Part shown: one piece after another, positions 3,471-36,230 of the stretch
Layout of the letters: every line of letters begins with the position of its first letter
Numbering within the stretch: the stretch's first letter is position 1
Assembly: GCA_945874695.1 (NCBI GenBank)
Contig: CAMCHP010000001.1
Span: forward strand, 1 to 64,000
DNA: 64,000 nucleotides
Reading direction: 5' to 3'
Origin: Chryseobacterium gleum
Lineage (GTDB): Bacteria > Bacteroidota > Bacteroidia > Flavobacteriales_D > Sanyastnellaceae
Made by a program: the position numbers and the translations under genes
The notes under the pieces: model-generated
What the model saw: only the letters and a program-made list of their open reading frames with translations
Told to the model about the DNA's origin: nothing
The model's database searches: none

Positions 3471-4253
3471 TCACTTGCGGTCGCCAAGTACAGGAAACTT
3501 CCTGCGAAAATCACTGAGCGATTCAGCGCTACACACAGCATGGATAAGGCCCTCCTGACCCGGTTCAAGCCCAGCCAAAACCTCTCCGCGTGCATCGAGA
3601 ATTACGCTGTCACCGCTGTATGCATGGCCATTCCCATCTTCACCCACACGGTTAGATGCAGCAACATAGCACTGGTTCTCAATCGCCCGAGCAACAAGCA
3701 AGGCTTGCCAAGGGTGGCGACGCACCGCGGGCCAATTGGCAACATAAAGCAATACATCATACCGGTAAACGTCGTCAACTTTCGCATTGCGCGCGCCTTC
3801 TGGGAAACGCAAATCATAACAGACCTGCAGGCAAATTTTCCAGCCCCGGAAAGTAACAACCTGCGCTGCATCACCCGCTGTGTAATGCAAATCTTCACCT
3901 GCAAGTGTAAAAAGATGCTGCTTGTCGTACCAAATTACTAGGCCATCAGGCTGCACCCAGTACAAGCGGTTGTAATAGTGTGCTTCATCGTGTATCGATA
4001 CGCTGCCCGCAATCGCGCAATCAAGATTCTTGCTCATGCGCAACATCCATTGCACCGTTTCACCCGATGCAACATCATGATGCTCGGCAATCCGTTCAGG
4101 TTCCATAGAAAAACCCGTTGTGAACATCTCGGGCAAGAGCACCAAATCAGTTGACCCAACCGCAGCTAACAGGTGTTCGATGTGCCGGCGGTTCGCAGCA
4201 GGATTTTCCCAAACTAAATCGGGCTGAACTGAAGTAACGCGAAAGTCGTTCAT
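3471..4253 (-). CDS. yafV: YafV-like omega-amidase (nitrilase superfamily)
   Basis: Carbon-nitrogen hydrolase of about 260 residues. The Glu-Lys-Cys triad is visible: E42 in LLPEMFTTGF, K111 in YDKQHLF, C145 in QVCYDLRFPE. Overall it reads very like E. coli YafV, which hydrolyses alpha-ketoglutaramate and 2-oxosuccinamate. It lies directly downstream of a YbdL-type aminotransferase, the enzyme that would make alpha-ketoglutaramate when glutamine is the amino donor. The frame is open to a TTG at 4271, but the ATG at 4253 gives the N-terminus typical of the family, so I place the start there. Confidence 0.92.
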   Translation of the reverse strand: MNDFRVTSVQPDLVWENPAANRRHIEHLLAAVGSTDLVLLPEMFTTGFSMEPERIAEHHDVASGETVQWMLRMSKNLDCAIAGSVSIHDEAHYYNRLYWVQPDGLVIWYDKQHLFTLAGEDLHYTAGDAAQVVTFRGWKICLQVCYDLRFPEGARNAKVDDVYRYDVLLYVANWPAVRRHPWQALLVARAIENQCYVAASNRVGEDGNGHAYSGDSVILDARGEVLAGLEPGQEGLIHAVCSAESLSDFRRKFPVLGDRK

Positions 4254-4267
4254 GGGGCGTTGTGGTT

Positions 4268-5428
4268 TCAAATGGCATTCAAACGTTCAGCGGCGGCCAA
4301 CAACACGTCGTCAGTTTTCGCAAAGCAGAAGCGGAGCATCTGGTTGTGTTCAGGCTGATGATAAAATACAGAAATCGGCACCGAAGTTACACCGTGTTTC
4401 ACGGTCCAATCTACCGCCACTTGCGTGTCTTCCTCGTGCGTGATGGCTCCATAATGCAAGAGCTGAAAATAAGTGCCTGGTGAGGGTGTGAATGTAAACC
4501 TTCCTGGCTTTAATGCGGTCAGAAAAAGATCGCGTTTTTGGCTGTAAAAGGCACTGAGTGTTTGCAGGTGTGCGGGCTGATCGCGCAAAAAGTCAGCGAG
4601 TGCATGCTGAATGGGCGTGTTCACACTGAATACATTGTACTGATGAACTTTGGTGAATTCAGCAATGAGCGCCGCAGGACCCGCAATGTAACCCACCTTC
4701 CAACCGGTGGCATGAAACGATTTTCCAAAAGAACCTACAACGAGCGTGCAATGCTGCAACCGCGGCATCGCAGCACAACTTAAATGTGACACACCGTCAA
4801 ATACAATGTGTTCATACACTTCGTCACTCAAAACAATCAAATCAGAATCTGCAGTTAAATGTTCGAGTTCATCGAGGTCGTGTTGCGTCAGTACCGCCCC
4901 TGTTGGGTTATGCGGGGTATTGATAATCATCATGCGGGTGTGCCGGTTTACAACCTTGCGCACCTCATCCCAATCAATGCGATAATCTGGCGCTTTCAAC
5001 TTCACGTAAATGGGCTTGCCTCCGGCCAATTCGATGGCCGGCGCATAACAATCATAGGCGGGGGTGAACACAACAACTTCGTCGTTTTCACGCACAAGAG
5101 CCATGATCGCTGTGAAAATTGCTTGCGTTGCCCCTGCGGTGATAACCACTTCACAATCAGGATCATAACTCACCTGTGAAGTGCGCAAGCGATCAAGTGC
5201 AACTTGTTCTCGTAAAGCCCGTACACCTTGCATCGGCGCATACTGATTCAAACCGCTTTGCAAATAATGCGCAACCCGATCTTTCAAGTCTTGAGGCACA
5301 TCAAAGCCCGGAAAACCCTGAGAAAGATTGATTGCGTCGTGCGAAGTTGCCAAAGCGCTCATTTTCGAAAATATCGTGGTACCCGTTCGGGGCAATTTCG
5401 ACGAAATCGCGAATGGATATTGCGGCAT
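4268..5428 (-). CDS. ybdL: YbdL-type PLP aminotransferase (methionine/glutamine transaminase)
   Basis: 386-residue class I/II aminotransferase. It aligns from the first residues with E. coli YbdL (SKLPxxGTTIFxxMSALAxxHxAINLSQGFP). The PLP lysine is K236 in SFGKSFHATGWKVGY; the NTPHNPTG and SDEVYEH motifs are present. YbdL/GTK-type enzymes transaminate methionine and other bulky or aromatic 2-oxo acid partners with glutamine. The adjacent omega-amidase gene fits the coupled glutaminase II (methionine salvage) scheme. The preferred substrate is inferred from the family. Confidence 0.92.
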   Translation of the reverse strand: MPQYPFAISSKLPRTGTTIFSKMSALATSHDAINLSQGFPGFDVPQDLKDRVAHYLQSGLNQYAPMQGVRALREQVALDRLRTSQVSYDPDCEVVITAGATQAIFTAIMALVRENDEVVVFTPAYDCYAPAIELAGGKPIYVKLKAPDYRIDWDEVRKVVNRHTRMMIINTPHNPTGAVLTQHDLDELEHLTADSDLIVLSDEVYEHIVFDGVSHLSCAAMPRLQHCTLVVGSFGKSFHATGWKVGYIAGPAALIAEFTKVHQYNVFSVNTPIQHALADFLRDQPAHLQTLSAFYSQKRDLFLTALKPGRFTFTPSPGTYFQLLHYGAITHEEDTQVAVDWTVKHGVTSVPISVFYHQPEHNQMLRFCFAKTDDVLLAAAERLNAI

Positions 5429-5531: not shown

Positions 5532-8033
5532 ATGCGCAAACTTTACTTCTTTCTCGCGGCGTTGCTAATGGCCAGCACAGCTACAAGCCAAGAAACGCCG
5601 TATGTTCCTGGTGAAATCATTGTCATGATGGAAAAAGGCAATAGCCCACACACCACGGCAGCCATTTTGTCGCGAATACTGGCACCGCAATTGAGCATCG
5701 AAGTCAGCGCGTGTTTGTCTGAACGCAGCGCTATTTATCTACTAAATTATTCGACCTCACTCGGCAACGACGAGGCAATTTTGACAAAAACACGCCAAAT
5801 GTCTGGCGTACGCGCGGCCCAATTCAATCACTACATCACTGAACGTGCTACGCTGCCAAACGACCCTTCCATCGGCACCCAATGGCACCATGTGAATGGC
5901 AACGACCGCGACATTGACAGCGATCTTGCTTGGGACATTACCACAGGCGGAAGCACAGCAACAGGTGACGAAATCGTGGTTTGTGTCATTGAACCTGGAG
6001 GAGCGAATTACAACCACAACGACCTCATCGCTAACCACTGGACAAACACCTCTGAAATCGCTGGAAACGGCATCGATGACGATGGCAACGGATTTGTTGA
6101 TGACGTGAATGGATGGAACCCAAGCGGCAATAACGACAACGTAGGAACCGGCAACCACGGCACAGCTGTGTCAGGTATGATCGGTGCCCGAGGCAACAAT
6201 GGAATTGGCGGCGCAGGCGTGAACTGGGACGTGAAAATTATGCAAGTACGCGTGGGCTCGCTCACTGAATCGAACGTTATTGCTGCTTACAACTACCCCT
6301 ATGTGATGCGCAACCTGTACAACACTACGGGCGGCAGCCAAGGTGCACTTGTTGTGGCAACAAATGCTTCTTGGGGCATCGATAACGCCAATCCGAACAA
6401 CTACCCGGTATGGTGTGCTTACTACGACGATTTGGGCGAGGTAGGCATTCTCAACTGCGGTGCTACAGCCAACAACAATGTTAGCATCGACGTGGTGGGC
6501 GACATGCCTACCGCTTGCAGCAGCAACTTTATGATTGCTGTAACGGCCACCAACACCAACGATGTGCGTACATTCTCGGGCTATGGCGCAACGACCATCG
6601 ACCTCGGCGCACCTGGCGAATCGGTTTTTTTGCCTTCTGGCTCTACTTCGTATGCCAATACCTCTGGAACCTCGTTCGCTAGCCCATGCGTAGCCGGCGC
6701 CATTGCCTTGGTTTACAGCACACCCTGCCCTGACCTCGCCGCACTCACACTGAGCAACCCCCAATTGGCTGCAGAACAAGTGCGTGGGTATATTTTAAAC
6801 GGTGTCGACATTGTCGGCAACCTCATTCCTGAAACTGTAACGGGCGGACGGTTGAACGTGCGTAACTCCATCGACTTGGCGCTCGCCAACTGCGGACCCC
6901 TGCCTGATTGCAATCCTGTTGATCTTACCCTAGCTACCTCATGCTACTTCAACGAAGTTGATCAAAGCATTGAAGCAGAAATTACATTGGATGTTACACT
7001 CTCTGAAAACTGGTGCAATGCCACCTCGGTATGCTACCAAGCTGCAGGAGGTAACGTAGTGTGCGACGACCTTGTCGCACTCGGTGTGAACGTGAACAAC
7101 CTCAACAACTACACCATCTTCGGTTTGGCATCGAACACAACCTATACGGTGTATTACACAACCGCAAACGGCACCTCTGCAAGCGTGAACATCACCACAG
7201 GAAACTGCAGTGCGCTGATTCCAGGTTGCACAGATTCCTTTGCCGTGAACTACAACCCCGCAGCTACTTTCGACGATGGCAGTTGCGAATATCCTTGCAC
7301 GCAAGTGACCTTTAGCATCACGACCGATTGTTGGGGCTATGAAAGCAGCTGGAACATTCAAGCCGCTGATGGAACCACCGTAGCCTCCATTCCATTCAAC
7401 ACCTACGGAAACAACCAAACGTACACCTGGACGGGCTGTCTCGAATGGGGGTGCTACACCTTTAACATCCTCGACAGCTTCGGTGATGGATTAGCCGGAA
7501 TTGCATCAGGCTGCGTACAAAACGGCAACTACAGCCTCGTTGATGACCAAGGAAACACGCTCTTTCAAATGGGAGCCCCCAATTTCGGAAGCGGAACCAA
7601 CCACGCATTCTGTGTGCCCGTTGATTTGCCCGGCTGCACCGATGTGGCGGCGTGTAACTACAACGCGCTGGCTACCATTGACAACGGCTCTTGCACCTAC
7701 CCCGATGGTTGTACCGATGCTGCAGCATGTAACTACAATCCTGCCGCAACGTGCGACAATGGCTCTTGCTCCTATGCATTTGGTTGTACCGACAGCCAAG
7801 CCTGCAATTACGATCCCTCAGCGCTATGCGATAGCGGCTGCGAATACCAAAGCTGCGCGTCGTGCCTAGGTGATTTCAACAGCGATGGCTTCCGCACAGT
7901 GGCCGATTTGCTGATGCTCATGTCTCAATTTGGTTGTGTATCTGGTTGCGCTTATGACCTCGACAACAACGACTACATCAATGCAGCTGACATGGTTGTC
8001 TTCCTGAGTCTTTTCGCTACAGCGTGCAACTAG
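5532..8033 (+). CDS. Secreted S8 (subtilisin-like) peptidase with GCTD repeats and dockerin-like C-terminus
   Basis: 833-residue exported protease. Signal peptide at 1-20 (cleavage near TATSQ). The peptidase domain spans about 110-455: histidine motif at H209 (HGTAVSG), oxyanion Asn N278, nucleophile S381 in SGTSFASP. The position normally held by catalytic Asp (VIDTG) reads VIEPGG, so E154 replaces Asp. After the catalytic domain come repeats of the type GCTDxxAxNYNPxATxDDGSC (about 565-590 and 700-775), probably calcium-binding and cross-linked by cysteines. The last 55 residues resemble a dockerin module (GDFNSDG...DLDNNDYINAADM). No classical T9SS CTD is seen; the same tail ends the gene at 55774. 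It is transcribed divergently from ybdL. Confidence 0.9.
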   Translation: MRKLYFFLAALLMASTATSQETPYVPGEIIVMMEKGNSPHTTAAILSRILAPQLSIEVSACLSERSAIYLLNYSTSLGNDEAILTKTRQMSGVRAAQFNHYITERATLPNDPSIGTQWHHVNGNDRDIDSDLAWDITTGGSTATGDEIVVCVIEPGGANYNHNDLIANHWTNTSEIAGNGIDDDGNGFVDDVNGWNPSGNNDNVGTGNHGTAVSGMIGARGNNGIGGAGVNWDVKIMQVRVGSLTESNVIAAYNYPYVMRNLYNTTGGSQGALVVATNASWGIDNANPNNYPVWCAYYDDLGEVGILNCGATANNNVSIDVVGDMPTACSSNFMIAVTATNTNDVRTFSGYGATTIDLGAPGESVFLPSGSTSYANTSGTSFASPCVAGAIALVYSTPCPDLAALTLSNPQLAAEQVRGYILNGVDIVGNLIPETVTGGRLNVRNSIDLALANCGPLPDCNPVDLTLATSCYFNEVDQSIEAEITLDVTLSENWCNATSVCYQAAGGNVVCDDLVALGVNVNNLNNYTIFGLASNTTYTVYYTTANGTSASVNITTGNCSALIPGCTDSFAVNYNPAATFDDGSCEYPCTQVTFSITTDCWGYESSWNIQAADGTTVASIPFNTYGNNQTYTWTGCLEWGCYTFNILDSFGDGLAGIASGCVQNGNYSLVDDQGNTLFQMGAPNFGSGTNHAFCVPVDLPGCTDVAACNYNALATIDNGSCTYPDGCTDAAACNYNPAATCDNGSCSYAFGCTDSQACNYDPSALCDSGCEYQSCASCLGDFNSDGFRTVADLLMLMSQFGCVSGCAYDLDNNDYINAADMVVFLSLFATACN

Positions 8034-8069
8034 GCATTGCTACTGAGCGACCGATTGCCTTACAGCTCC

Positions 8070-8092
8070 CATCCGGCCGTTTAGGCCGAAAA
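8070..8092 (-). repeat. Palindromic repeat, copy 2 (canonical)
   Basis: Canonical stem CGGCC-TAAAC-GGCCG on the minus strand with TTTT before and GATG after. It lies in the 68-bp gap between two convergent genes (subtilase and lysoplasmalogenase). Confidence 0.85.
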
Positions 8093-8101
8093 CCCTTAAA
8101 C

Positions 8102-8806
8102 CTACGCTTCGTCGGTATTGAGGGCCTTGGATCGGTGCATCACCAAGCCCAATACGATTAATCCTTGGGCCAAGGTGTATGTGCTCATGATGTAAAAGCC
8201 GTGAATGGGCGCATCGAATCGGTCAAAGGCAATGAGTGCATCAGAAAGCACGAAAAGTACCGCCCCAATGAGCACGAGCCAAAAACTCACTTCATTGGTG
8301 CGGCGGCTGCGATTGAGCGCGGCCATCAACATCAAAAACAAGATGCCGCTGTAGGCCATAACAGGCCAGTACAGGCTGCCCAAGTCAGCGTAGAACTGAC
8401 GCACAACGACCACGAAAATGAAGGCGCTCACCAAGATCACCGAAGGGTGTCTGCGCAAAAGCGATCGTTTTTCGTTGGGTTTAATGTGCCGTGAAAACAC
8501 GGCCACATACAGGGCCTGCGCCAAGAAAAAACTGGCCAAACCGGCTTTGAAATAGGCCTCATCAACGTCGTAAAGCAGCAAAACGTCGCCCGCCCAAGCA
8601 AAGAGCAACGAACCCAAAAGCAACACCCGAACGCTGACGCGACTCAGCGAGGGCGATGTGGCCACCATGAGCATCAAAATGGGCATCAACCCGCCTTTGA
8701 AAATCCCATGCATCACCGGATACATGTCTTTCACCAGTTGAAGAGAAAGCTCGACGATGGTCCATACCAAATACGTCTGAATCAATATGCGATCGCTCTT
8801 AACCAT
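8102..8806 (-). CDS. Lysoplasmalogenase (YhhN/TMEM86 family)
   Basis: Integral membrane protein of about 234 residues with around eight hydrophobic segments and the family elements DVLLLYD, SDALIAFDRF and YTLAQGLIVLG. Members of the YhhN/TMEM86 family hydrolyse the vinyl-ether bond of lysoplasmalogens. I choose the ATG at 8806 because it overlaps the upstream stop codon by 8 bases (ATGGTTAA). Translational coupling to the AGMO-like gene suggests a shared ether-lipid role. The family call is firm; the substrate is inferred. Confidence 0.85.
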   Translation of the reverse strand: MVKSDRILIQTYLVWTIVELSLQLVKDMYPVMHGIFKGGLMPILMLMVATSPSLSRVSVRVLLLGSLLFAWAGDVLLLYDVDEAYFKAGLASFFLAQALYVAVFSRHIKPNEKRSLLRRHPSVILVSAFIFVVVVRQFYADLGSLYWPVMAYSGILFLMLMAALNRSRRTNEVSFWLVLIGAVLFVLSDALIAFDRFDAPIHGFYIMSTYTLAQGLIVLGLVMHRSKALNTDEA

Positions 8807-10034
8807 TCCATTTTTGTTTGGTCCACAAGACAATAAAAACCGCTAAACCGGTTAAAGTCAAGCCAAAAATTATCGACCCAAAGGTCTGCATTTCTAGGCT
8901 AAGCGCGACCCAAACCGCGGTACTGAGTAACACAATCTGGCGAATCAACTCCAAAATACGGGCTCCTGTGCGCCGATCAAACAAACTCCCCAACGCATAC
9001 ACTTGAAACAAAACAACAACTAAAAAAATCGCATTGATGACGTTGCTGTAGTTCTGAAACGTGAACAGAAAAACACTGGTAAACCCGATTACAACCGCAT
9101 ATTGACTTAACAAATAGGCATTCACCGCAAAAGGCAAATCGCGGTTGAATTTCACTTCATTACCGGTGAGCTCAGGCGGTGATTTGAATCCGCCCATGCT
9201 CGCAGGGTACCAACCCGGGGCTGCAAATAAAAAACGCAAACGATCGCGCCAGCTGGGCACTTGAGCGGCCTCTGAAAACAGTTGTTTAAAGGGAGCGATG
9301 TGCGCCATAACTGGGTTGAAGCTGTTCAAGGGGGTGGTAATGCCATAGGTCGGACGTTCTTCTTCGACCTGAAAAGTGCCAAATAAGCGATCCCAGATTA
9401 TAAATACACCCGCGTGGTTCTTATCGATGTACTTGGGGTTACGCCCATGGTGCACCCGGTGATGCGAGGGGGTATTCAACACCCACTCCAAAGGGCCGAG
9501 GCGATCAATGAACTCGGTGTGAATCCAAAACTGATACAACAAATTCAGTCCGATGCTCACCGCAAACCAAGCCGGCGGAAAGCCCGCTGCCGCAAGCGGT
9601 AAGTAAATCCAAAACATCAACATCTTCTGAAAAGCGCCTTGCCGCAAGGCCACTGACAGGTTGTAATCTTCACTTTGGTGGTGCACCACATGGCCCATCC
9701 AAAACAAGTTGATTTGGTGGCTCAATCGATGCGACCAATAGTAGGCCAAATCAACCAAAACAAAGCAGAGGGCCCAAAAAACGAAGGTATTTGGCAGCTC
9801 AAAACCGCGAAAATTACGAAACAACTCAAACACGAGCACGTACGCGCCAACTGTAAATACCTTGGCAAATACGCCCGTCATTTGGTCGATTACGCCGCAA
9901 GAAATATTCGCAAATGCGTCGTTCAACCGGTAACTCTTGCGCTGTTTCACCAAATCGTACACCAGCTCAATGGCGATCAGCGCAAAGAAAATCGGGATAC
10001 TAAGAATTACAACATCCAAGTTCAAATTGTCCAA
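8799..10034 (-). CDS. AGMO-like fatty acid hydroxylase superfamily protein (alkylglycerol monooxygenase type)
   Basis: Polytopic membrane di-iron protein, about 411 residues. Three histidine clusters are visible: HRLSH, GHVVHHQSE and HHRVHHGRN. The central block (HHQSEDYNLSVALRQ, LLYQFWIHTEFIDRLGPLE, LNTPSHHRVHH, IDKNHAGVFIIWDRLFGTF) is much closer to animal alkylglycerol monooxygenase (TMEM195) than to sterol desaturases, and the extra C-terminal membrane segments also match AGMO. AGMO cleaves glyceryl ether lipids. The frame is open to 10172, but a -7 box at 10056-10063 lies inside that stretch, so I place the start at the TTG at 10034. The 3' end overlaps the lysoplasmalogenase gene. Confidence 0.82.
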   Translation of the reverse strand: MDNLNLDVVILSIPIFFALIAIELVYDLVKQRKSYRLNDAFANISCGVIDQMTGVFAKVFTVGAYVLVFELFRNFRGFELPNTFVFWALCFVLVDLAYYWSHRLSHQINLFWMGHVVHHQSEDYNLSVALRQGAFQKMLMFWIYLPLAAAGFPPAWFAVSIGLNLLYQFWIHTEFIDRLGPLEWVLNTPSHHRVHHGRNPKYIDKNHAGVFIIWDRLFGTFQVEEERPTYGITTPLNSFNPVMAHIAPFKQLFSEAAQVPSWRDRLRFLFAAPGWYPASMGGFKSPPELTGNEVKFNRDLPFAVNAYLLSQYAVVIGFTSVFLFTFQNYSNVINAIFLVVVLFQVYALGSLFDRRTGARILELIRQIVLLSTAVWVALSLEMQTFGSIIFGLTLTGLAVFIVLWTKQKWNG

Positions 10035-10055
10035 AGCAATACCTTTTGTTCCTCT

Positions 10056-10063
10056 CAAAGATA
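10056..10063 (-). promoter_or_regulatory. -7 box for the AGMO-like gene
   Basis: TATCTTTG on the minus strand, exact match to TAnnTTTG, 21 bases upstream of the TTG start at 10034. It rules out the longer open frame as the translated product from this promoter. Confidence 0.6.
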
Positions 10064-10114
10064 CATCGCTTCGCATGAACAACAATCGCCCGCAGAGATC
10101 GTGTTTACCTTGCG

Positions 10115-10122
10115 TATCTTCG
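10115..10122 (+). promoter_or_regulatory. -7 box, probable leaderless start
   Basis: TATCTTCG (7 of 8 to TAnnTTTG) followed by exactly four bases and the ATG at 10127. Confidence 0.5.
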
Positions 10123-10126
10123 ACCC

Positions 10127-10768
10127 ATGGCTTGGCAAAAAATGGCATGTCTTTTTCTTGCGGTTGCTGCACTCCAAGTACAGGGTCAACAGCCGCTTTT
10201 TAATTTAGGCCTAACGGCCGGATGGCACGCAGCAGCCATCACACGTCGGCCTGAAAGTAACCAGCTTTCACCGGTGGCCGCATGGGGCGTCAACAATGCG
10301 CATGGAGGCGCATTCATGGAGATCCGTCTGCGCGAACCGGTTTACCTGCTCGCTGAAGCACAGCTTTCCAGTTTGAATACACGGGGCAGTTATTTCGTGC
10401 GCAACAATACCCAAGAAATCATGCGTATGCAAGCCTCCATGCGCGAAACCGCATTTCTGTTTTCAGCCTTAATTCAGTACCACGTCGACAATGTGCGGGC
10501 TTGCGTTGGCTTTACTTCAATGCTTCTGCAAAACAGCACGCTCGACCCTGCTCCTGCTTCGCTGGTGAATAACCGAAGGGCTTTTGATTTCGGTCTAACG
10601 ACCGGATTAGAAATCACCCTCAAACCACACCTCAGCGTCACCGCGCGGTTCATTCGGCTTTATGGCGGATTGTACATGGCACGTCCAGAAGGCACTGAAC
10701 AAGCTCGTTACTACCTCTTACAGATCGCTGGGCGCGTGCACATCCGGCCGTTAGGCCGAAAACCATAA
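10127..10768 (+). CDS. Exported outer-membrane beta-barrel-like protein, function unknown
   Basis: 213 residues with a signal peptide (MAWQKMACLFLAVAALQVQG, cleavage near residue 20). The rest is rich in alternating hydrophobic and aromatic residues suggesting a small beta-barrel (for example LLAEAQLSSLN, ACVGFTSMLL, LSVTARFIRLYGGLYM). I do not recognise a specific family. Two copies of the palindromic repeat lie in this gene: one just after the signal peptide (encoding GLTAGW) and one at the very C-terminus (encoding IRPLGRKP). The gene is divergent from the AGMO-like gene. Confidence 0.75.
   Translation: MAWQKMACLFLAVAALQVQGQQPLFNLGLTAGWHAAAITRRPESNQLSPVAAWGVNNAHGGAFMEIRLREPVYLLAEAQLSSLNTRGSYFVRNNTQEIMRMQASMRETAFLFSALIQYHVDNVRACVGFTSMLLQNSTLDPAPASLVNNRRAFDFGLTTGLEITLKPHLSVTARFIRLYGGLYMARPEGTEQARYYLLQIAGRVHIRPLGRKP
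10204..10225 (+). repeat. Palindromic repeat, copy 3 (inside gene, loop one base shorter)
   Basis: AGGCC-TAAC-GGCCG followed by GATGG, one mismatch from the core. It is in frame with the outer-membrane protein and encodes GLTAG just after its signal peptide; the gene at 55774 has the same peptide from the same repeat. Confidence 0.65.
10741..10762 (-). repeat. Palindromic repeat, copy 4 (end of gene)
   Basis: Minus-strand TTTT, CGGCC-TAAC-GGCCG, GATG. It forms the last codons of the outer-membrane protein gene, antisense to it, and the stop codon follows within a few bases. Confidence 0.8.
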
Positions 10769-27404: not shown

Positions 27405-28661
27405 TTAAATGTGCAAATCTTTACTTTCCTGCAAGAATGGGTGATTTACCGCAACCAATGGCGCTTTACTAAGCGCACGGAAGGTGGTAAATACAAACAA
27501 GCCGAGGAAGCCGAGGAACATACCAACCTCCATCCAACCAAAATGGTTGTGGTCATGCATGGTTCCGGGAATAACGAGCAAATAAACATCCACGAAGTGT
27601 CCCACAAAGATCAATAGCGCAACTGGCAAGATGAACGCCGGGTTTCGCTTTGCATCACGAGCGATCAAAACGTAAAATGGAACTGCAAAATTGATGAAGA
27701 ACATTACTATGAACGGCACCGAGTAATCGGTATACATGCGGTTTACGAAATACGTCACTTCTTCAGGAATGTTCGAGTACCAAATCAACATAAACTGGCT
27801 GAACCACAAGTAGCTCCACAGCATTGAAATTGCGAACATCCACTTTGACAAATCGTGCACGTGCGACTGGTTCATGTTTGGGAAGTAACCCTTTGAGCGT
27901 AACCACAGCAAGCTAAGAAGTGCAAAAATCATAGTTGTTACCCACATCCCTGAGAACACGTACCAACCATACAAGGTAGAGAACCAGTGCGTATCAATGG
28001 ACATCAACCAGTCCCAAGACAAAGTAGACGAGAATACCGCGAAAAACACGAGGAACAGTGCGGCGCGGCGATACATCAAAAAGTGGAGGCGCGTGCCACC
28101 TTCGCGGTCTTCTTGCAAAGACCACTTGCGGAATAAACGAGCAAAAATTAGAAACGTAGCCAAGTAGATGATGGTGCGCAACCAAAAGAACCAGGTACTC
28201 AGGTACGCTGACTTATTGGCGATAATGTGATCGTAATTTGGATTCGCAATGGCACCAGCCTCAGCGGTATCAGTGTAAGTAACTGTATCTCCACTCACGA
28301 TCATGTACTCATGATACAAGGTGCCATCCATCCAGTGATAGATGTGGTGCAAATGTGCTTGACCTGCCAAAAGTACGATCAGAATAACCGCACTACCTAT
28401 TGGTAAATAAGAGAACATGGCCTCAAACATACGCTTTACGTAGGCTGACCATCCCACTTCCGCAGCATATTGCAAAGCATAGAAAAACAGTGCACCCAAC
28501 GCTATGGCAAAAAAGAAAAAGCCATTAACAAGCAGGTTTGACCACCAACGTTGGTGATGTTCTGAATCATCGGTGATGAATCCACCGACCAACGCGATAA
28601 CTCCTACTAACATTAGTGCGAGCGACAGCGTCTTTAGTTTTCCTTCGAACTTGAATTCCAT
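27405..28661 (-). CDS. actF: Alternative complex III subunit ActF (quinol:cytochrome c oxidoreductase)
   Basis: 418 residues with about ten membrane helices, lying between ctaC and actE. It belongs to the ActF family of ACIII, related to the NrfD-like quinone-binding subunit ActC but shorter. Typical elements: LSWDWLMSIDTHWFSTLYGWYVFSG and YLWFSQFMLIWYSNIPEE. It is thought to help form the quinol site and the membrane part of the complex. Confidence 0.93.
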   Translation of the reverse strand: MEFKFEGKLKTLSLALMLVGVIALVGGFITDDSEHHQRWWSNLLVNGFFFFAIALGALFFYALQYAAEVGWSAYVKRMFEAMFSYLPIGSAVILIVLLAGQAHLHHIYHWMDGTLYHEYMIVSGDTVTYTDTAEAGAIANPNYDHIIANKSAYLSTWFFWLRTIIYLATFLIFARLFRKWSLQEDREGGTRLHFLMYRRAALFLVFFAVFSSTLSWDWLMSIDTHWFSTLYGWYVFSGMWVTTMIFALLSLLWLRSKGYFPNMNQSHVHDLSKWMFAISMLWSYLWFSQFMLIWYSNIPEEVTYFVNRMYTDYSVPFIVMFFINFAVPFYVLIARDAKRNPAFILPVALLIFVGHFVDVYLLVIPGTMHDHNHFGWMEVGMFLGFLGLFVFTTFRALSKAPLVAVNHPFLQESKDLHI

Positions 28662-28693
28662 GGTATTCGTTCTCTGTGTTAATCTCTTTTAGG

Positions 28694-29398
28694 TTATCCT
28701 GCTACTTGATCTGCGGCAGCTTCAGCCACTACGGTACCTGTCGAATCTGCAGGCGCTTCAGTGCTCACGTTCCCTGACTCATCAAAAGTTGGCATCTTAC
28801 CTCCTTGTTGAAGCACTTGAACGTATTGAATCACTTGCCACCGCTCCTTCGCTGAAATTTGAGCGGCGTGCGATCCCATCAAACCTTTACCGTAGTAAAT
28901 TGAATGGTACATGCGGCCCTCCGCCAAATCTTTAAGTTTACCGCTGTACTCCGGAATACCTTCGATATGACCATTCCTTGCGATGGCACCGTCACCTTTT
29001 CCTTTCTCACCATGACAGTGCTGGCACATGATGGTGTAAATCTCTTTACCACGCTCGATGTTTGCTTGGTTGAATGGGATCGGACTTTTAAGGCCTTCTG
29101 AAAGTTCATATCCTTCTGGAGTGTTCGGGTGAGGATACGGCATATTGAAAATCATATCGGCTCCAGCATAAGCAATTGAGCCTGCGACGGGTTTACGCGC
29201 GCTGATACGTCCGTTCAAAGAATCGTACTGCGCTTGTCCGAAGTGAAAGGGATCCATCCCATAATCTACGTACGCCTCAACCGCCGGGCTGCGGTACATA
29301 TCAGGCATGTACTCCAATCCTGGGCTATTCGGATCGGTCACACATGCGCCGAGCAGCACAACCGAGGAGAAGAAAAGCAATGTATTTCTAAGCAACAT
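28694..29398 (-). CDS. actE: Alternative complex III subunit ActE, monohaem cytochrome c lipoprotein
   Basis: 234 residues. Lipoprotein signal with LLGAC lipobox at about residue 19, then one CXXCH (CQHCHGEKGKGDG, about 129-133) with a distal Met in the GKMPTF region. ActE carries electrons from the quinol site of ACIII toward the oxidase. The N-terminal PDMYRSPAVEAYVDYG region and the C-terminal low-complexity tail (APADSTGTVVAEAAADQ) are usual in Bacteroidota. It is 11 bases after actD. Confidence 0.94.
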   Translation of the reverse strand: MLLRNTLLFFSSVVLLGACVTDPNSPGLEYMPDMYRSPAVEAYVDYGMDPFHFGQAQYDSLNGRISARKPVAGSIAYAGADMIFNMPYPHPNTPEGYELSEGLKSPIPFNQANIERGKEIYTIMCQHCHGEKGKGDGAIARNGHIEGIPEYSGKLKDLAEGRMYHSIYYGKGLMGSHAAQISAKERWQVIQYVQVLQQGGKMPTFDESGNVSTEAPADSTGTVVAEAAADQVAG

Positions 29399-29409
29399 GG
29401 CTTGGTCTT

Positions 29410-29943
29410 TTATTCGTAATCTTTAATGCTCAATTCGATCATTGGAGTGTCTTTCACCAATGCTTCAATTTCATCGGCTGACATCGCATTCTGATCAGTT
29501 GTAATTTCCATCACAAACTTATCATCTGTTGTGCGCGGGTCAGGATTGGTAGCCGGCATACCTGGTAAAGTTCCATTCCGAAGCAGGTAAGTCAAGACCA
29601 TCCCGTGGGCTCCACAGAGCACGCTGAATTCGAAGGTTACCGGAATAAATGCAGGCAAGTTCTCAATCAAAGAAAAACTCGGCTTACCACCGATGTTCAT
29701 CGGCCAGTCATGAATCATGAAATACCACATCCCCAAAAGGGCGAGTGCTGTTCCAGCAGAGGCATACATAAACGAGGCGATCGCCAAGCGTGTGCGCTTC
29801 ACACCAATGATAGGGTCTAATCCGTGGATCGGGAAAGGTGAATACACATCCTTTACGCGAATCCCTTTTGCAACGAGATGCTCTGCTGCATGCAACAGGG
29901 TATCGTCGTCATCGTACATCACATGAAAAACTTTCTTGCTCAT
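29410..29943 (-). CDS. actD: Alternative complex III subunit ActD (DUF3341)
   Basis: 177 residues with two membrane helices (about 56-78 and 95-120) and a short cytoplasmic N-terminal domain (HVMYDDDDTLLHAAEHLVAKGIRVKDVYSPFPIHGLD), the DUF3341 signature. ActD anchors ACIII and packs next to ActC. Gene order and 10-11 base spacings on both sides match the conserved act operon. Confidence 0.94.
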   Translation of the reverse strand: MSKKVFHVMYDDDDTLLHAAEHLVAKGIRVKDVYSPFPIHGLDPIIGVKRTRLAIASFMYASAGTALALLGMWYFMIHDWPMNIGGKPSFSLIENLPAFIPVTFEFSVLCGAHGMVLTYLLRNGTLPGMPATNPDPRTTDDKFVMEITTDQNAMSADEIEALVKDTPMIELSIKDYE

Positions 29944-29953
29944 GGTTCAGCGC

Positions 29954-31339
<1,386 letters not shown>

Positions 31340-31350
31340 TGCTGCTTGGT

Positions 31351-34300
31351 TTATGCTTGCTGATCTTCTTCTACGTTACGCACTTTCACCATGTAGTAGA
31401 TGTTAGGTTGTACACCAACTTCTTCCAAGGCGTGGTATGCGCGATTATTTTCTGAAATGCTGCGCACTTGGCTCTGCTTGTCGTTCAAGTCACCGAAACG
31501 AATCGCACCGATTGAACATGCTTCAGCACATGCGGTAACAACTTCGCCATCTACCACAGCGCGACCTGCTTTCTTCGCTTCGAGCTTTCCAGCTTGCAAG
31601 CGTTGAACGCACATGCTACACTTCTCCATTACACCGCGCGAACGCACCGTAACGTCTGGGTTCAAAACCATACGTGTGAGCATATCTTGCGCAGGGTTCA
31701 CATTCTGGAACTTGTCATAGCCCATGTAGTTGAACCAGTTGAAGCGACGCACTTTATATGGGCAGTTGTTTGCGCAGTAACGCGTTCCGATGCAACGGTT
31801 GTAGGTCATTTGATTCAGGCCCTCGTTGCTGTGTGTAGTTGCTGCAACTGGACAAACCGTTTCGCACGGTGCGTGGTTACAGTGTTGACACATCATCGGC
31901 ATGTGCACGGTTTGTGGGTTCTCCGCTGGATCTTCCATCTTGCGGTAGGTCGAAATGGCACCCAAACCTTCTTCTGCTCCGCGCTCTTTTGAGTAATCTG
32001 AAGAGTAGAAACGGTCGATGCGCAACCAGTGCATGTCGCGGTGACGAAGCACTTCATCTTTACCTACTACAGGCACGTTATTTTCAGTATGGCAGGCTGT
32101 AACACAGGCTCCACAACCTAAGCAAGAGCTCAGGTCAATCGCCATGCCCCAGCGATGCCCAACACCCTCAACAGGGTGTGCATGCCACAAATCGAAGTCT
32201 CGAATCGACTTTTTATCGCTCGCGTTGATCTCACCGTCGCCGTTCACATCTTCGTGAACACCCAACTTATGCGCCTTATTCCAAGTTGCATCACCTTTCT
32301 GCTTTTCTTTTTCTGCAAGGTATGCAGCTAAAGAGGTTTCCTTCACGACCGAAGTACGGCCCATGTAGGTATGATGCATTTGCGTGCAAGCCAACGGATA
32401 TGTGCCGCCCGCAGCTTCGACTTTCACATCGAGGTTATGCAAAACAGGGTATCCATTCGCTAATGTCGCGAGTGGGTATGCGTTCTTACCAATCGGAATC
32501 AAGTTTCCTGACGTGTCAGACAAATGAGATCCATTCTCTGCGGTTTGGTAAGCGGCCTTGCCAATGCGCTCATTTGATGCGCCTCGGCCGTAGCCAATCG
32601 CAATTCCAATTGTTCCTCGTTTCTGACCCGGTTGCGGGTAAGCTGGCAATACCATCTCAACGCCATTGGCAGTTACCTTAACCAAAGAAGCATGATCGTT
32701 TTGAGCGATGTAGGTGTTCAAGCCCATCTCGTCCATGTCTGCCTTTGCCATGGTTACGTAGTTGTCCCACGTCACCTTAGAAACCGGGTCTGGCAATTCT
32801 TGCAACCACGGGTTTGCAGCATGCGAACCATCCCCCAATCCTGTCTTTTGGTACAAGGCCAATTGCCAAGCGCCACCATTCTGACCATTGAGTTTGCTCA
32901 CAGCATCGCTAACATCCCAACCTGGCGCTGCAACTTCAGCACTTGGCGCCGCCTCATAAGCTGCTGTACCTTGCGTTACGATTGCTGTTTCAGCCAGAAC
33001 GGGCTTTTGCAAGAGTACCCCATTATGAACCGCTGCGTTCCAATCCACATCGGTGTACATCTGATCTTCGGTGTAAGCACTGTTATGCGTTTTCCGAAGG
33101 AAGGTGTAATATGAGTCGATATTATCACTCCACTTCAAGAGGCTCTCTTGCGCCTGACGTGTATTGAAGAGGGGACTGATGGTTGGTTGAACCAAGTCAA
33201 TACGACCTGCAGTCAACGACAAATCATTCCACGACTCGAGGTAGTGGTGATCCGGACAGATATATTGGCAGCGGCTCGCTGTTTCGTCAGACAATCCTGA
33301 GAACGAAACGGTCAGTTTACACTTAGCCAATGCAGCTGCAAAATCGCCTGCTGCATACCATGAGTACGCAGGGTTTGTTCCATAAACGACCAAGGCATCC
33401 ACCTGACCGCTATTCATATTCTTCACCAACTCAGCCATGTCGCGGTCGTTGCCAGCGAACATGCTAACTGGTTCATCTGTATTGATGGTTTTGCCATAAT
33501 TGTTCAACGCTTGGTTGATGGCATTCACGACACGCTGCACGTCTGGATCATTGCTACCAGCAACGACTAACGATGCACCACTGTTACGCTTCAAGGCATC
33601 GGCTGCATTTGCGAGTGCAATCTCACTAACACCGTCAACGTTTCCGTTTCCACTACCTGTCACACGAGCAAGCAAGGCTGCAGCCACTTTACCGTGCTGA
33701 TCAGGACGAATAGCTACGCGCGTATCCGCATTCGTTCCAGTCAAGGACATGATTGTCTCGAACTGGAAGTGGCGCGACATCCACTCCCCTTCAGGTTTGC
33801 GGCGGCTTGCGTAATCGACAGCGTAAAGGTTAGAAGTAAGCCAGTTCGCCAAGAAATCAGCCCCAATGCTTACAATGGTTTTGGCTTGATCGAAGTGGTA
33901 GGTAGGAATGATTGCTTTGCCAATGGTTTTGGCATTCGCTTCACGCATTCCGCTGTATGAAACTGCGTCATATTGAATATGACGGGCGTTGTATTTCACT
34001 TTAAATCCGTCAATCGCGCGCTGCGTTGAAGGAGAAATAACCGTATTGCTCAAAAGCACAACGTTGCTCGAAGCGGCAAGGGCCGCCATGATCTCTTGAT
34101 CAACGGTTGCCCAATCGGCAGGCGCGTTGTTCTTCATCGGACCTTCCAAGCGCGCTGAGTCATAAAGGCTCAACACAGATGAGTTGATGCGCGCATTTAA
34201 CGCTCCACCTTTCACACCGTGTGCTCGATTCGCTTTGATGAAGATCGGACGGCCCTCACGGGTTTTGACGAACATGCTGCCGAAATCGTTGCCATCGTAG

Positions 34301-34593
34301 TAGGCGCTTGCGTAATAGTTCGCAACACCTGGAGTGATCTCAGCCGGTTTGTTAACGTAAGGGATCGATTTGATCACGGGTGTTTCACACGCCGCCAAGG
34401 TTGCAGCAGTAATGCTGAAACCCATGAATTTCAAAAAGTCACGACGTCCGGTGCTGGTTTCTTTCAGTTTGTCATCTGCTAGAAACTCGTCTACGCTTTG
34501 TTGCGCCGGAAATTCTTCTTTTAACAACGCTTGGTATTCCGGTGTCTCGTGAAGCTCATCGAGTCCTGCCCAGTATTGCTTGCTATTGCTCAT
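31351..34593 (-). CDS. actB: Alternative complex III subunit ActB (TAT-variant molybdopterin oxidoreductase-like / 4Fe-4S protein)
   Basis: 1080 residues. A twin-arginine signal variant (RRDFLKFMGFSITAATLAAC, about 50-69) follows a conserved N-terminal stretch. The middle (about 100-740) is the molybdopterin-oxidoreductase-like domain without obvious cofactor cysteines, as known for ActB. The C-terminal ferredoxin-like part has four cysteine groups: CLGCGACVTACH, CQHCNHAPCETVCP, CIGTRYCANNCPYK and CSMCVQR...CAEACSIGA, enough for three [4Fe-4S] and one [3Fe-4S] cluster. The order and size fit the family. Confidence 0.96.
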   Translation of the reverse strand: MSNSKQYWAGLDELHETPEYQALLKEEFPAQQSVDEFLADDKLKETSTGRRDFLKFMGFSITAATLAACETPVIKSIPYVNKPAEITPGVANYYASAYYDGNDFGSMFVKTREGRPIFIKANRAHGVKGGALNARINSSVLSLYDSARLEGPMKNNAPADWATVDQEIMAALAASSNVVLLSNTVISPSTQRAIDGFKVKYNARHIQYDAVSYSGMREANAKTIGKAIIPTYHFDQAKTIVSIGADFLANWLTSNLYAVDYASRRKPEGEWMSRHFQFETIMSLTGTNADTRVAIRPDQHGKVAAALLARVTGSGNGNVDGVSEIALANAADALKRNSGASLVVAGSNDPDVQRVVNAINQALNNYGKTINTDEPVSMFAGNDRDMAELVKNMNSGQVDALVVYGTNPAYSWYAAGDFAAALAKCKLTVSFSGLSDETASRCQYICPDHHYLESWNDLSLTAGRIDLVQPTISPLFNTRQAQESLLKWSDNIDSYYTFLRKTHNSAYTEDQMYTDVDWNAAVHNGVLLQKPVLAETAIVTQGTAAYEAAPSAEVAAPGWDVSDAVSKLNGQNGGAWQLALYQKTGLGDGSHAANPWLQELPDPVSKVTWDNYVTMAKADMDEMGLNTYIAQNDHASLVKVTANGVEMVLPAYPQPGQKRGTIGIAIGYGRGASNERIGKAAYQTAENGSHLSDTSGNLIPIGKNAYPLATLANGYPVLHNLDVKVEAAGGTYPLACTQMHHTYMGRTSVVKETSLAAYLAEKEKQKGDATWNKAHKLGVHEDVNGDGEINASDKKSIRDFDLWHAHPVEGVGHRWGMAIDLSSCLGCGACVTACHTENNVPVVGKDEVLRHRDMHWLRIDRFYSSDYSKERGAEEGLGAISTYRKMEDPAENPQTVHMPMMCQHCNHAPCETVCPVAATTHSNEGLNQMTYNRCIGTRYCANNCPYKVRRFNWFNYMGYDKFQNVNPAQDMLTRMVLNPDVTVRSRGVMEKCSMCVQRLQAGKLEAKKAGRAVVDGEVVTACAEACSIGAIRFGDLNDKQSQVRSISENNRAYHALEEVGVQPNIYYMVKVRNVEEDQQA

Positions 34594-34611
34594 TGTCGTT
34601 GTGTTCAGGAA

Positions 34612-36030
34612 TTAATAGTGGCACTTAGAGCATTCCCAGCCCCCGAGATCTTTAACAGTCACGCTTTCATCTTCGATGTAGCGGCGCAGTTCTTCGTTGC
34701 CACGAATGTCTTCTTTCAGGCGGTTGTGTACTTCTTCGTAGTATCCACTGCTTGCCAAGTCAATATTGGCTTTGTTATGACACTCAATGCACCAACCCAT
34801 TGTGAGCGTGGGCTTTGAAAGCTGAATCAAGCTTGGATACTCGCTCACCAAACGGTTGATTTCTTCAACCGGTGTCAAACGACCACCTTTATAGGTTGCT
34901 ACATCACCGTGACAGTTTTGGCACTCCAAACCACCAACAACAACGTGTTGCTCGTGATTGAAGTAAACGTGATCTGGCAGGTTATGAACTTTATTCCATT
35001 TGATCGGCTCCTCTACATGGTCTTCAATGTACTGACCTGTTTCGGGATTGAATCCAATTGCCGCATAAATCTTACCGATTTCTTTTTCTCCCCAGCGGCT
35101 ACCGTTCTTGATGCCTTTGTGGCAATTCATACAAACGTTAACTGAAGGGATGCCCGCGTGCTTAGACTTCGAGGCACTGCTATGGCAGTATTGGCAATCA
35201 ACCTCGTTTTCACACACGTGAATGCTGTGCCAAAATTTGATGGGTTGCTCTGGCTCGTACGCTTGGTAAGTCCCGATATCCATCGCTGCCTGGTAGGCAA
35301 CCACTGCGCCGTAAACCACCACGAACAAACCAATAAGCGAAACAAGAACTAAGTTCTTCCAAGCCCATGCTTTGAACGCTTGACCATATGTCATTGGGGG
35401 CAATGCTGGTTTGCCTTCACTTTCGCGGTGTGCATTGGTGAGCGATTGCTTCACACTTGACGCCGAGGCAGCTATGATGATGAAGAGCACCACCAAAATA
35501 ATGAACCACAGCGTAGCCGAGCTGCTCTTCTCTTCAGGGTAGATCTCGTCGTAGGTTAAACATTCGTTAGCTGCCGTAGCATCCACGGGCGCCTGTCCGG
35601 GAGGGTTTTGCACGTATGCCATGATGTCAGCCACATCAGCTGCACTCACGGCCTGCGCGCTCATCCAGCCGTAAACGGGCACATAGCGTTCCACCAAAGA
35701 TTTGATGTACGCATCACCTGACTCAGCGGCTTTTTGCGGGTTTTGAATCCAAAGTACAAGCAATTCATCACTTGCTCCCCAGCGATCGGCAATACCTGCC
35801 AATCCTGGTCCTGCAAGGACTTCATTGGTAACTTTGTGGCACGAGGCACAGTTTGCTTTAAAAAGCTGCTCACCTTTCACTGCGTCACCTTCATCCCATA
35901 CGCTTGCGCTCAGTGATGATGAGAGGATAAGGGAGAGGAGAAATAGCAAGCCTCTCGAGGTTCTGTTGGCCTTCCATGGCCGTAAAGGAAGTCGGATCAT
36001 CTCGCGTTGTTTACGGATCTGAACAGTCAT
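34612..36030 (-). CDS. actA: Alternative complex III subunit ActA, multihaem cytochrome c with fused monohaem domain
   Basis: About 472 residues from the ATG at 36030, chosen because a TAAATTTG box is 9 bases upstream. Signal-anchor at about 26-44, then a monohaem cytochrome c domain (CASCH at 61-65), a membrane helix (about 170-190), a second helix (about 225-250) and a pentahaem region with CQYCH, CMNCH, CQNCH, CIECH and CSKCH at the extreme C-terminus. ActA passes electrons within ACIII toward ActE or the oxidase. First gene of an eight-gene operon. Confidence 0.94.
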   Translation of the reverse strand: MTVQIRKQREMIRLPLRPWKANRTSRGLLFLLSLILSSSLSASVWDEGDAVKGEQLFKANCASCHKVTNEVLAGPGLAGIADRWGASDELLVLWIQNPQKAAESGDAYIKSLVERYVPVYGWMSAQAVSAADVADIMAYVQNPPGQAPVDATAANECLTYDEIYPEEKSSSATLWFIILVVLFIIIAASASSVKQSLTNAHRESEGKPALPPMTYGQAFKAWAWKNLVLVSLIGLFVVVYGAVVAYQAAMDIGTYQAYEPEQPIKFWHSIHVCENEVDCQYCHSSASKSKHAGIPSVNVCMNCHKGIKNGSRWGEKEIGKIYAAIGFNPETGQYIEDHVEEPIKWNKVHNLPDHVYFNHEQHVVVGGLECQNCHGDVATYKGGRLTPVEEINRLVSEYPSLIQLSKPTLTMGWCIECHNKANIDLASSGYYEEVHNRLKEDIRGNEELRRYIEDESVTVKDLGGWECSKCHY

Positions 36031-36039
36031 ATTCGCGGG

Positions 36040-36047
36040 CAAATTTA
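36040..36047 (-). promoter_or_regulatory. -7 box of the act-cta respiratory operon
   Basis: TAAATTTG on the minus strand, exact match, 9 bases before the actA ATG at 36030. A clear -33 TTG is not evident. Confidence 0.6.
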
Positions 36048-36230
36048 TGTGATTTTGACATTGGCTTTCGAGCAGCATGACAAAATTGTGACACTCTCGG
36101 GTAATTTAAAATCGTTCTAAATAAACCGTGCTTTTGCGCTCCACATGCGGGAAACAGTGAACTTCAGTAAGTTATGGAGGCAAAGCGGTTGATTGTACTT
36201 GTTTTGGCACAATTCATGCTGATATTCCAT

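Follow-up and report, generated by a model that had tools for sequence, protein, structure and literature searches.

The window analysed here, a 64,000-nucleotide stretch of DNA, carries a gene for a predicted di-iron membrane monooxygenase resembling animal alkylglycerol monooxygenase (AGMO), and this gene overlaps one for a protein of the YhhN/TMEM86 lysoplasmalogenase family. The association between the two genes is found in two phyla and arose, or was lost and regained, repeatedly. With modest confidence, we favor a reading of the pair as a two-gene membrane module for degrading lyso-ether lipids.

Gene layout and family assignments

The oxygenase (P0001) and YhhN (P0002) genes probably form a two-gene operon, since the flanking genes on both sides run on the opposite strand (Table 1). 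The initial annotation had described an 8-base overlap between them, which we see at 8799-8806 and which suggests translational coupling. Upstream of the TTG start at 10034, the oxygenase frame stays open as far as a GTG at 10172. The pair's promoter likely sits in the 92-bp gap before the divergent gene; a sigma-70 scan made no call in this gap and found nothing above shuffled sequence. The window genome holds a single oxygenase copy and, in our phylum scan, a single YhhN gene.

Table 1. Coordinates of the features discussed; positions without a locus or contig prefix are those of the window
Feature	Position	Strand	Details
AGMO-like di-iron membrane monooxygenase (P0001)	8799..10034	-	411 aa, TTG start
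YhhN/TMEM86-type lysoplasmalogenase family protein (P0002)	8102..8806	-	234 aa, ATG start
Overlap, oxygenase stop and YhhN start	8799..8806	-	8 bases
Gap to divergent gene 10127-10768 (+, without Pfam match)	10035..10126		92 bp
Gap to convergent gene 5532-8033 (+)	8034..8101		68 bp; downstream limit of the two-gene unit
Multihaem cytochrome cluster	27405-36078	-
Carbon-nitrogen hydrolase and aminotransferase-like genes	3471-5428	-	overlap of 4 bases
Long AGMO-like gene and short paralogue	L069:4995-7131		head to tail, one strand
Long AGMO-like gene and short paralogue	L075:3540-5688		head to tail, one strand
Cytophagales-type small gene	L037:6196-6567
Cytophagales-type small gene	L038:6187-6576
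Cytophagales-type small gene	L039:6205-6576
Cytophagales-type small gene	L040:6214-6582
Cytophagales-type small gene	L043:6237-6620
Cytophagales-type small gene	L044:6245-6619
Cytophagales-type small gene	L045:6244-6621
Cytophagales-type small gene	L046:6244-6630
Cytophagales-type small gene	L049:6226-6585
Pterin-4a-carbinolamine dehydratase	G000:C40:6713-6946		genome without aromatic amino-acid hydroxylase match

Two other groups of genes stand out in the window. One encodes, by Pfam, a multihaem cytochrome, a 1080-aa Fe-S/molybdopterin-like subunit and an NrfD-like subunit, which we take to be a probable alternative complex III. The other, a carbon-nitrogen hydrolase gene overlapping an aminotransferase-like gene, presumably resembles an omega-amidase/glutamine transaminase pair.

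P0001 matches the FA_hydroxylase family (PF04116) at 98.1 bits against a cut-off of 31, and plasmid records label the oxygenase a 'sterol desaturase family protein'. In human AGMO, nine histidines together with Q162, D233, N235, Y236, W243 and D244 are reported as essential, alanine at Glu137 or at Tyr236 impairs the enzyme, and H201, W243 and D244 are described as superfamily-wide (excerpts of PMC3617469 and PMC7911779). P0001 keeps 14 of the 16 positions important in this mutagenesis. These comprise all nine histidines, namely the eight-histidine motif plus the H201 equivalent (H102, H106, H115, H118, H119, H172, H192, H195 and H196), and all five equivalents of Q162, D233, N235, W243 and D244 (Q132, D204, N206, W214 and D215), with matching spacing. 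The two replacements are Gln107 at AGMO Glu137 and His207 at AGMO Tyr236. An alignment of 87 long forms shows no variation at the nine histidines or at the Gln162, Asp233 and Asn235 equivalents; Glu occupies the Glu137 position in 59 of them and Tyr the Tyr236 position in 28, with His there in the window clade. A larger set of 134 long rows includes 52 that keep all 16 positions, 41 that keep 15, 40 that keep 14 and one that keeps 13. The Gln162 equivalent is absent from the distant FA hydroxylases L022-L030.

Residues 305-372 of P0001 make up an AGMP_C-like C-terminal helical domain. Its match to the AGMO C-terminal family (PF24858) reaches 22.2 bits, below the cut-off of 28.3; the curated cut-off is exceeded in the relatives L121 (36.9 bits) and L122 (28.8 bits), and 7 of 16 members of group A1 match at E<=0.01. 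Homology of the AGMO C-terminal domain to YhhN was ruled out (hhalign probability 0.3%). The AlphaFold model of the oxygenase has a pLDDT of 95.8. Foldseek of this model against the PDB gave no match (best E 1.1), and a sequence search of solved structures gave none for P0001 or P0002.

For comparison with the animal enzyme we used an approximate human AGMO catalytic fragment, which agrees with 16/16 published positions. This approximate fragment is 59% identical to P0001 over 143 residues. It falls inside the long-form clade of our tree, set apart from six distant hydroxylases with an SH-aLRT of 97, a placement that serves as a lead only. In the same tree, the short paralogues (about 300 aa), which lack the C-terminal domain, cluster mostly apart. 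Both kinds occur together at L069 and L075, where a long AGMO-like gene is arranged head to tail with a short paralogue.

Because the published residue positions match, with the grouping of the approximate human fragment as a lead, we place the catalytic domain of P0001 with AGMO and not with the general fatty-acid hydroxylases, an assignment that is partly supported. The likeness to AGMO proposed from the first inspection of the sequence stands for 14 of 16 residues and is tempered by the replaced Glu137 and Tyr236 equivalents and the sub-threshold PF24858 match.

The downstream protein matches YhhN (PF07947) at 125.7 bits (cut-off 25.6), and its predicted structure (pLDDT 93.2) has eight helices of at least 20 residues. 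Positions mutated in TMEM86 are K43, G81, D82, H104, G182, S189, D190 and Y213, of which H104 is described as one that leaves more than 10% activity in the alanine mutant (an excerpt of PMC11994398). P0002 keeps 7 of these 8 (K37, G73, D74, G181, S188, D189 and Y210), with Gln97 replacing H104 of TMEM86A; across 44 aligned YhhN rows this position is His in 36 and Gln in 8. Foldseek of the YhhN model returned weak GPCR/rhodopsin-like matches only (best E 0.35). Profile score and predicted helices agree with the earlier assignment of this gene product to the TMEM86/YhhN family, whose tested members are, in the parts of PMC11994398 and PMC9052158 available, lysoplasmalogenases.

Distribution, repeated linkage and fusion

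The oxygenase has matches at E<=0.001 in 32 of 40 related genomes. A YhhN frame adjoins 13 of the 16 long homologues fetched from these relatives and none of the 14 other loci fetched. Across a 296-genome sample of the phylum, we found 134 oxygenase matches in 89 genomes and 67 YhhN matches in 54, with both present in 43 (odds ratio 16.7; the p of 4e-17 is too strong, as the genomes are related). A same-strand YhhN neighbor occurs at 15 of 60 long oxygenase matches, downstream in every case, compared with 1 of 55 short and 0 of 19 other matches, and about 0.01 adjacent pairs would be expected by chance in this sample against the 15 observed. When an organism-named collection was searched, the best 80 of 590 relatives showed the pairing at at least 17 loci, or at least 15 after removal of duplicates; fewer than 700 bases lie downstream at 6 of the 78 distinct loci, making this adjacency count a lower bound. 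Loci with the same DNA (L031 and L004, L033 and L013) were dropped to one each before counting.

The pairing is present in Pedobacter (L055, L057, L059, L060 and L062), in a Chryseobacterium and in Quisquiliibacterium transsilvanicum, a betaproteobacterium whose two genes overlap by 4 bases. YhhN lies directly downstream in 6 of 9 long forms from 74 genomes of the Quisquiliibacterium family, and 26 of 33 distinct oxygenase-to-YhhN junctions overlap. Two thirds of the long homologues (93/134) are not beside YhhN.

The Quisquiliibacterium family also provided a fusion, L128, in which a single 501-aa frame matches both FA_hydroxylase (104.1 bits) and YhhN (144.9 bits). With this fusion as query, 115 of 399 Burkholderiales genomes matched. 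Among the best 30 long Burkholderiales loci, nine were linked to YhhN: six fused, one with YhhN downstream and two with it upstream, one of these upstream matches being weak (59.7 bits). Single-frame fusions therein are L131 (the same as L128) and L132-L136, at least six among the 399 genomes, and all six have the full set of 16 AGMO residues and the invariant YhhN residues. At two loci, G740 (L139) and G703:C127, YhhN precedes the AGMO-like gene, both on one strand, the G703 partner being of the short kind. A plasmid search with a fusion as query found no record covering 80% of the fusion.

We then mapped linkage to YhhN, which 41 rows show, onto a quick tree of 134 long rows that excluded duplicates (L117, L124 and L140 share genome G333 with L110, and L131 repeats L128). 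Linkage changes at least 12 times on this tree, with 8 changes forced by well supported branches. Therefore, the association has arisen, or been lost and regained, repeatedly. The earlier proposal that the two genes are linked is strongly supported: the link is seen again in two phyla, with either gene order and in fused form, and is not unique to the window genome.

Proposed lipid breakdown, alternatives and cofactor

AGMO acts on alkylglycerols and lyso-alkylglycerophospholipids to give a hemiacetal, which yields a fatty aldehyde and a glycerol derivative, and the toxic aldehyde is then oxidized by a dehydrogenase (as described in part of PMC7911779). YhhN cleaves the vinyl ether of lysoplasmalogens only with a free sn-2 hydroxyl, likewise releasing a fatty aldehyde (an excerpt of PMC9052158). 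In the reading we favor, the AGMO-like enzyme would hydroxylate 1-O-alkyl glycerols or lyso-phospholipids at the ether carbon with O2, and the resulting hemiacetal would collapse, releasing a fatty aldehyde and leaving a glycerol derivative. YhhN would hydrolyze the vinyl ether in the corresponding 1-O-alkenyl lipids (lysoplasmalogens), giving the same product types. Since neither known enzyme acts unless sn-2 is free, the two could work in parallel, clearing alkyl and alkenyl ether lipids that other organisms have made, whether as a carbon source, for detoxification or for the two purposes together. This shared lyso-substrate rule and the shared aldehyde products (excerpts of PMC3617469, PMC7911779, PMC9052158 and PMC9131029) would, by analogy, offer the simplest reason for the genes to travel together. 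We infer the ether-lipid activity of the pair from its sequences; its reactions, substrates, exogenous lipid source and electron donor are likewise putative.

Aldehyde dehydrogenase genes account for 3 of the 104 neighbors scanned (from 167 candidates). In the close relatives L050 and L051 one comes next after the pair on the same strand, and in L063 one precedes the oxygenase across a short run of N. No pterin gene is among the 25 neighbor families listed for the 104 neighbors scanned. At nine Cytophagales-type loci, the gene directly after the long AGMO-like gene is not YhhN and instead encodes a small (~125 aa) lipoprotein-like protein. These proteins have a common core around 'LGRPD', and the two members scanned had no Pfam match.

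An alternative that we consider unlikely, though it deserves serious weighing, is that the oxygenase has some other Bacteroidota lipid as its substrate (a hydroxy fatty acid, a sphingoid or an amino lipid), of which YhhN would attack a second bond. Substrates are many across PF04116, the Glu137 and Tyr236 equivalents are replaced in P0001, and a change of substrate within the AGMO-like family is real in at least one described case: PRUB680 of Pseudoalteromonas rubra, the one characterized bacterial enzyme of AGMO-like type that we found, reported as an AGMO-like prodigiosin cyclase (excerpts of PMC6667630, PMC7484904 and PMC7911779). We compared PRUB680 by description only; it is likewise bacterial and AGMO-like, but prodigiosin is not an ether lipid. 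The sole NCBIfam match of P0001 also points to another lipid, being to the ornithine-lipid hydroxylase OlsE, which shares the Pfam superfamily domain; however, it scores 53.6 bits where the equivalog cut-off of NF052566 is 475. Against such a substrate stand the invariance of the nine histidines and of the Gln162, Asp233 and Asn235 equivalents in all 87 aligned long forms, and the lysoplasmalogenase activity of the partner family's tested members.

Less probable still is a sequential scheme, in which the AGMO-like enzyme uses the same hydrogen abstraction to make a 1'-alkenyl (vinyl) ether that YhhN then hydrolyzes, with fusion channeling the intermediate. Fusions and overlapping genes would suit channeling, PRUB680 demonstrates an outcome other than hydroxylation, and the window clade has His where human AGMO has its essential Tyr236. 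Yet AGMO already yields aldehyde without a partner, and hydroxylation should be within reach of the fusions, whose 16 AGMO residues are all intact. We also know of no desaturase activity in the AGMO-like clade.

The bacterium could instead make alkyl or vinyl ether lipids itself and use the unit to edit them, as plasmalogens are made by some bacteria (parts of PMC9131029 and PMC9471318). We regard this as quite improbable. A profile search for the PEDS1/CarF desaturase (PF10520) found no match in the window genome or in any of the 40 relatives. The 296 phylum genomes gave one clear match, indicating that the model works, and one below the cut-off, and the genome with the clear match is not among the 15 with a long adjacent pair. 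Furthermore, Legionella is described as having a YhhN lysoplasmalogenase but not plasmalogens (an excerpt of PMC9471318). Since no PEDS1/CarF was found in this search, which covered that desaturase family only, the pair more likely degrades ether lipids from outside than remodels plasmalogens made by the cell itself. The initial description of a salvage or remodeling unit accordingly keeps its gene link, while its remodeling half is disfavored. Finally, many adjacent pairs come from related Bacteroidota and their counts are not independent, but chance inheritance of a meaningless adjacency in one lineage is very hard to credit given a minimum of 12 changes across the tree (8 of them forced) and three arrangements, fusion included, in two phyla.

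Returning to breakdown of lyso-ether lipids, we considered which electron donor the oxygenase might use. Alanine at AGMO Glu137 raises the Km for tetrahydrobiopterin 18-fold, and a glutamate here is stated, in the available parts of PMC3617469 and PMC7911779, to be absent from all other proteins with the motif. Because this position is Gln in P0001, its donor probably binds differently from tetrahydrobiopterin in animal AGMO; the enzyme may use another donor, or a different pterin at lower affinity. The cofactor question raised at the outset therefore tilts away from tetrahydrobiopterin for the window protein. Loss of Glu137, seen in 18 of 33 downstream-linked versus 25 of 93 unlinked rows, was not significantly tied to YhhN adjacency (independent pairs: 0 same and a mean of 2.2 opposite over 6).

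Pterin recycling genes do not settle the cofactor. The suggested search for pterin genes covered three families. The window genome has a carbinolamine dehydratase, as do 33 of 40 relatives, and a PTPS-family gene, as do all 40 relatives, but gave no aromatic amino-acid hydroxylase match. The dehydratase does not track the oxygenase, being missing in some genomes with a long oxygenase (e.g., G006 and G009). One such dehydratase gene, on contig C40 of G000, is listed in Table 1.

Known relatives and implications

Like animal AGMO (TMEM195, EC 1.14.16.5), the window oxygenase combines the FA_hydroxylase domain, the nine histidines and the Q162, D233, N235, W243 and D244 equivalents with C-terminal helices. 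Unlike it, the window protein, a predicted monooxygenase, is bacterial, linked to YhhN and without the Glu137 and Tyr236 equivalents. Its partner shares the Pfam family, the eight long helices and 7 of 8 positions with the YhhN/TMEM86 proteins of Legionella, M. tuberculosis and human (TMEM86A/B), but has Gln97 in place of His and is encoded with, or in relatives fused to, an AGMO-like oxygenase. An AGMO-YhhN operon or fusion was not described in the literature searched, which included few subscription journals or preprints.

More tentatively, and with clearly less confidence than we attach to lyso-ether lipid breakdown as such, the pair could represent a dedicated bacterial ether-lipid cutter that sometimes occurs as a single protein. 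AGMO chemistry would then not be an animal specialty. The Bacteroidota branch to which the window protein belongs would have dropped the Glu used in tetrahydrobiopterin binding and the essential Tyr, and would run on another donor, and the fusions might act sequentially, taking an alkyl ether through an alkenyl ether or hemiacetal to the aldehyde.

AGMO is reported to be the sole known enzyme that cleaves the alkyl ether bond of ether lipids, and it has resisted purification. Bacterial relatives that carry all tested AGMO residues, including some with a fused lysoplasmalogenase, may prove more tractable to produce and investigate, and the natural Glu/Gln and Tyr/His variants can serve directly to probe the role of the pterin residue. 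If our reading is true, these genes would constitute an aerobic bacterial route for consuming the ether lipids of animals and other organisms.
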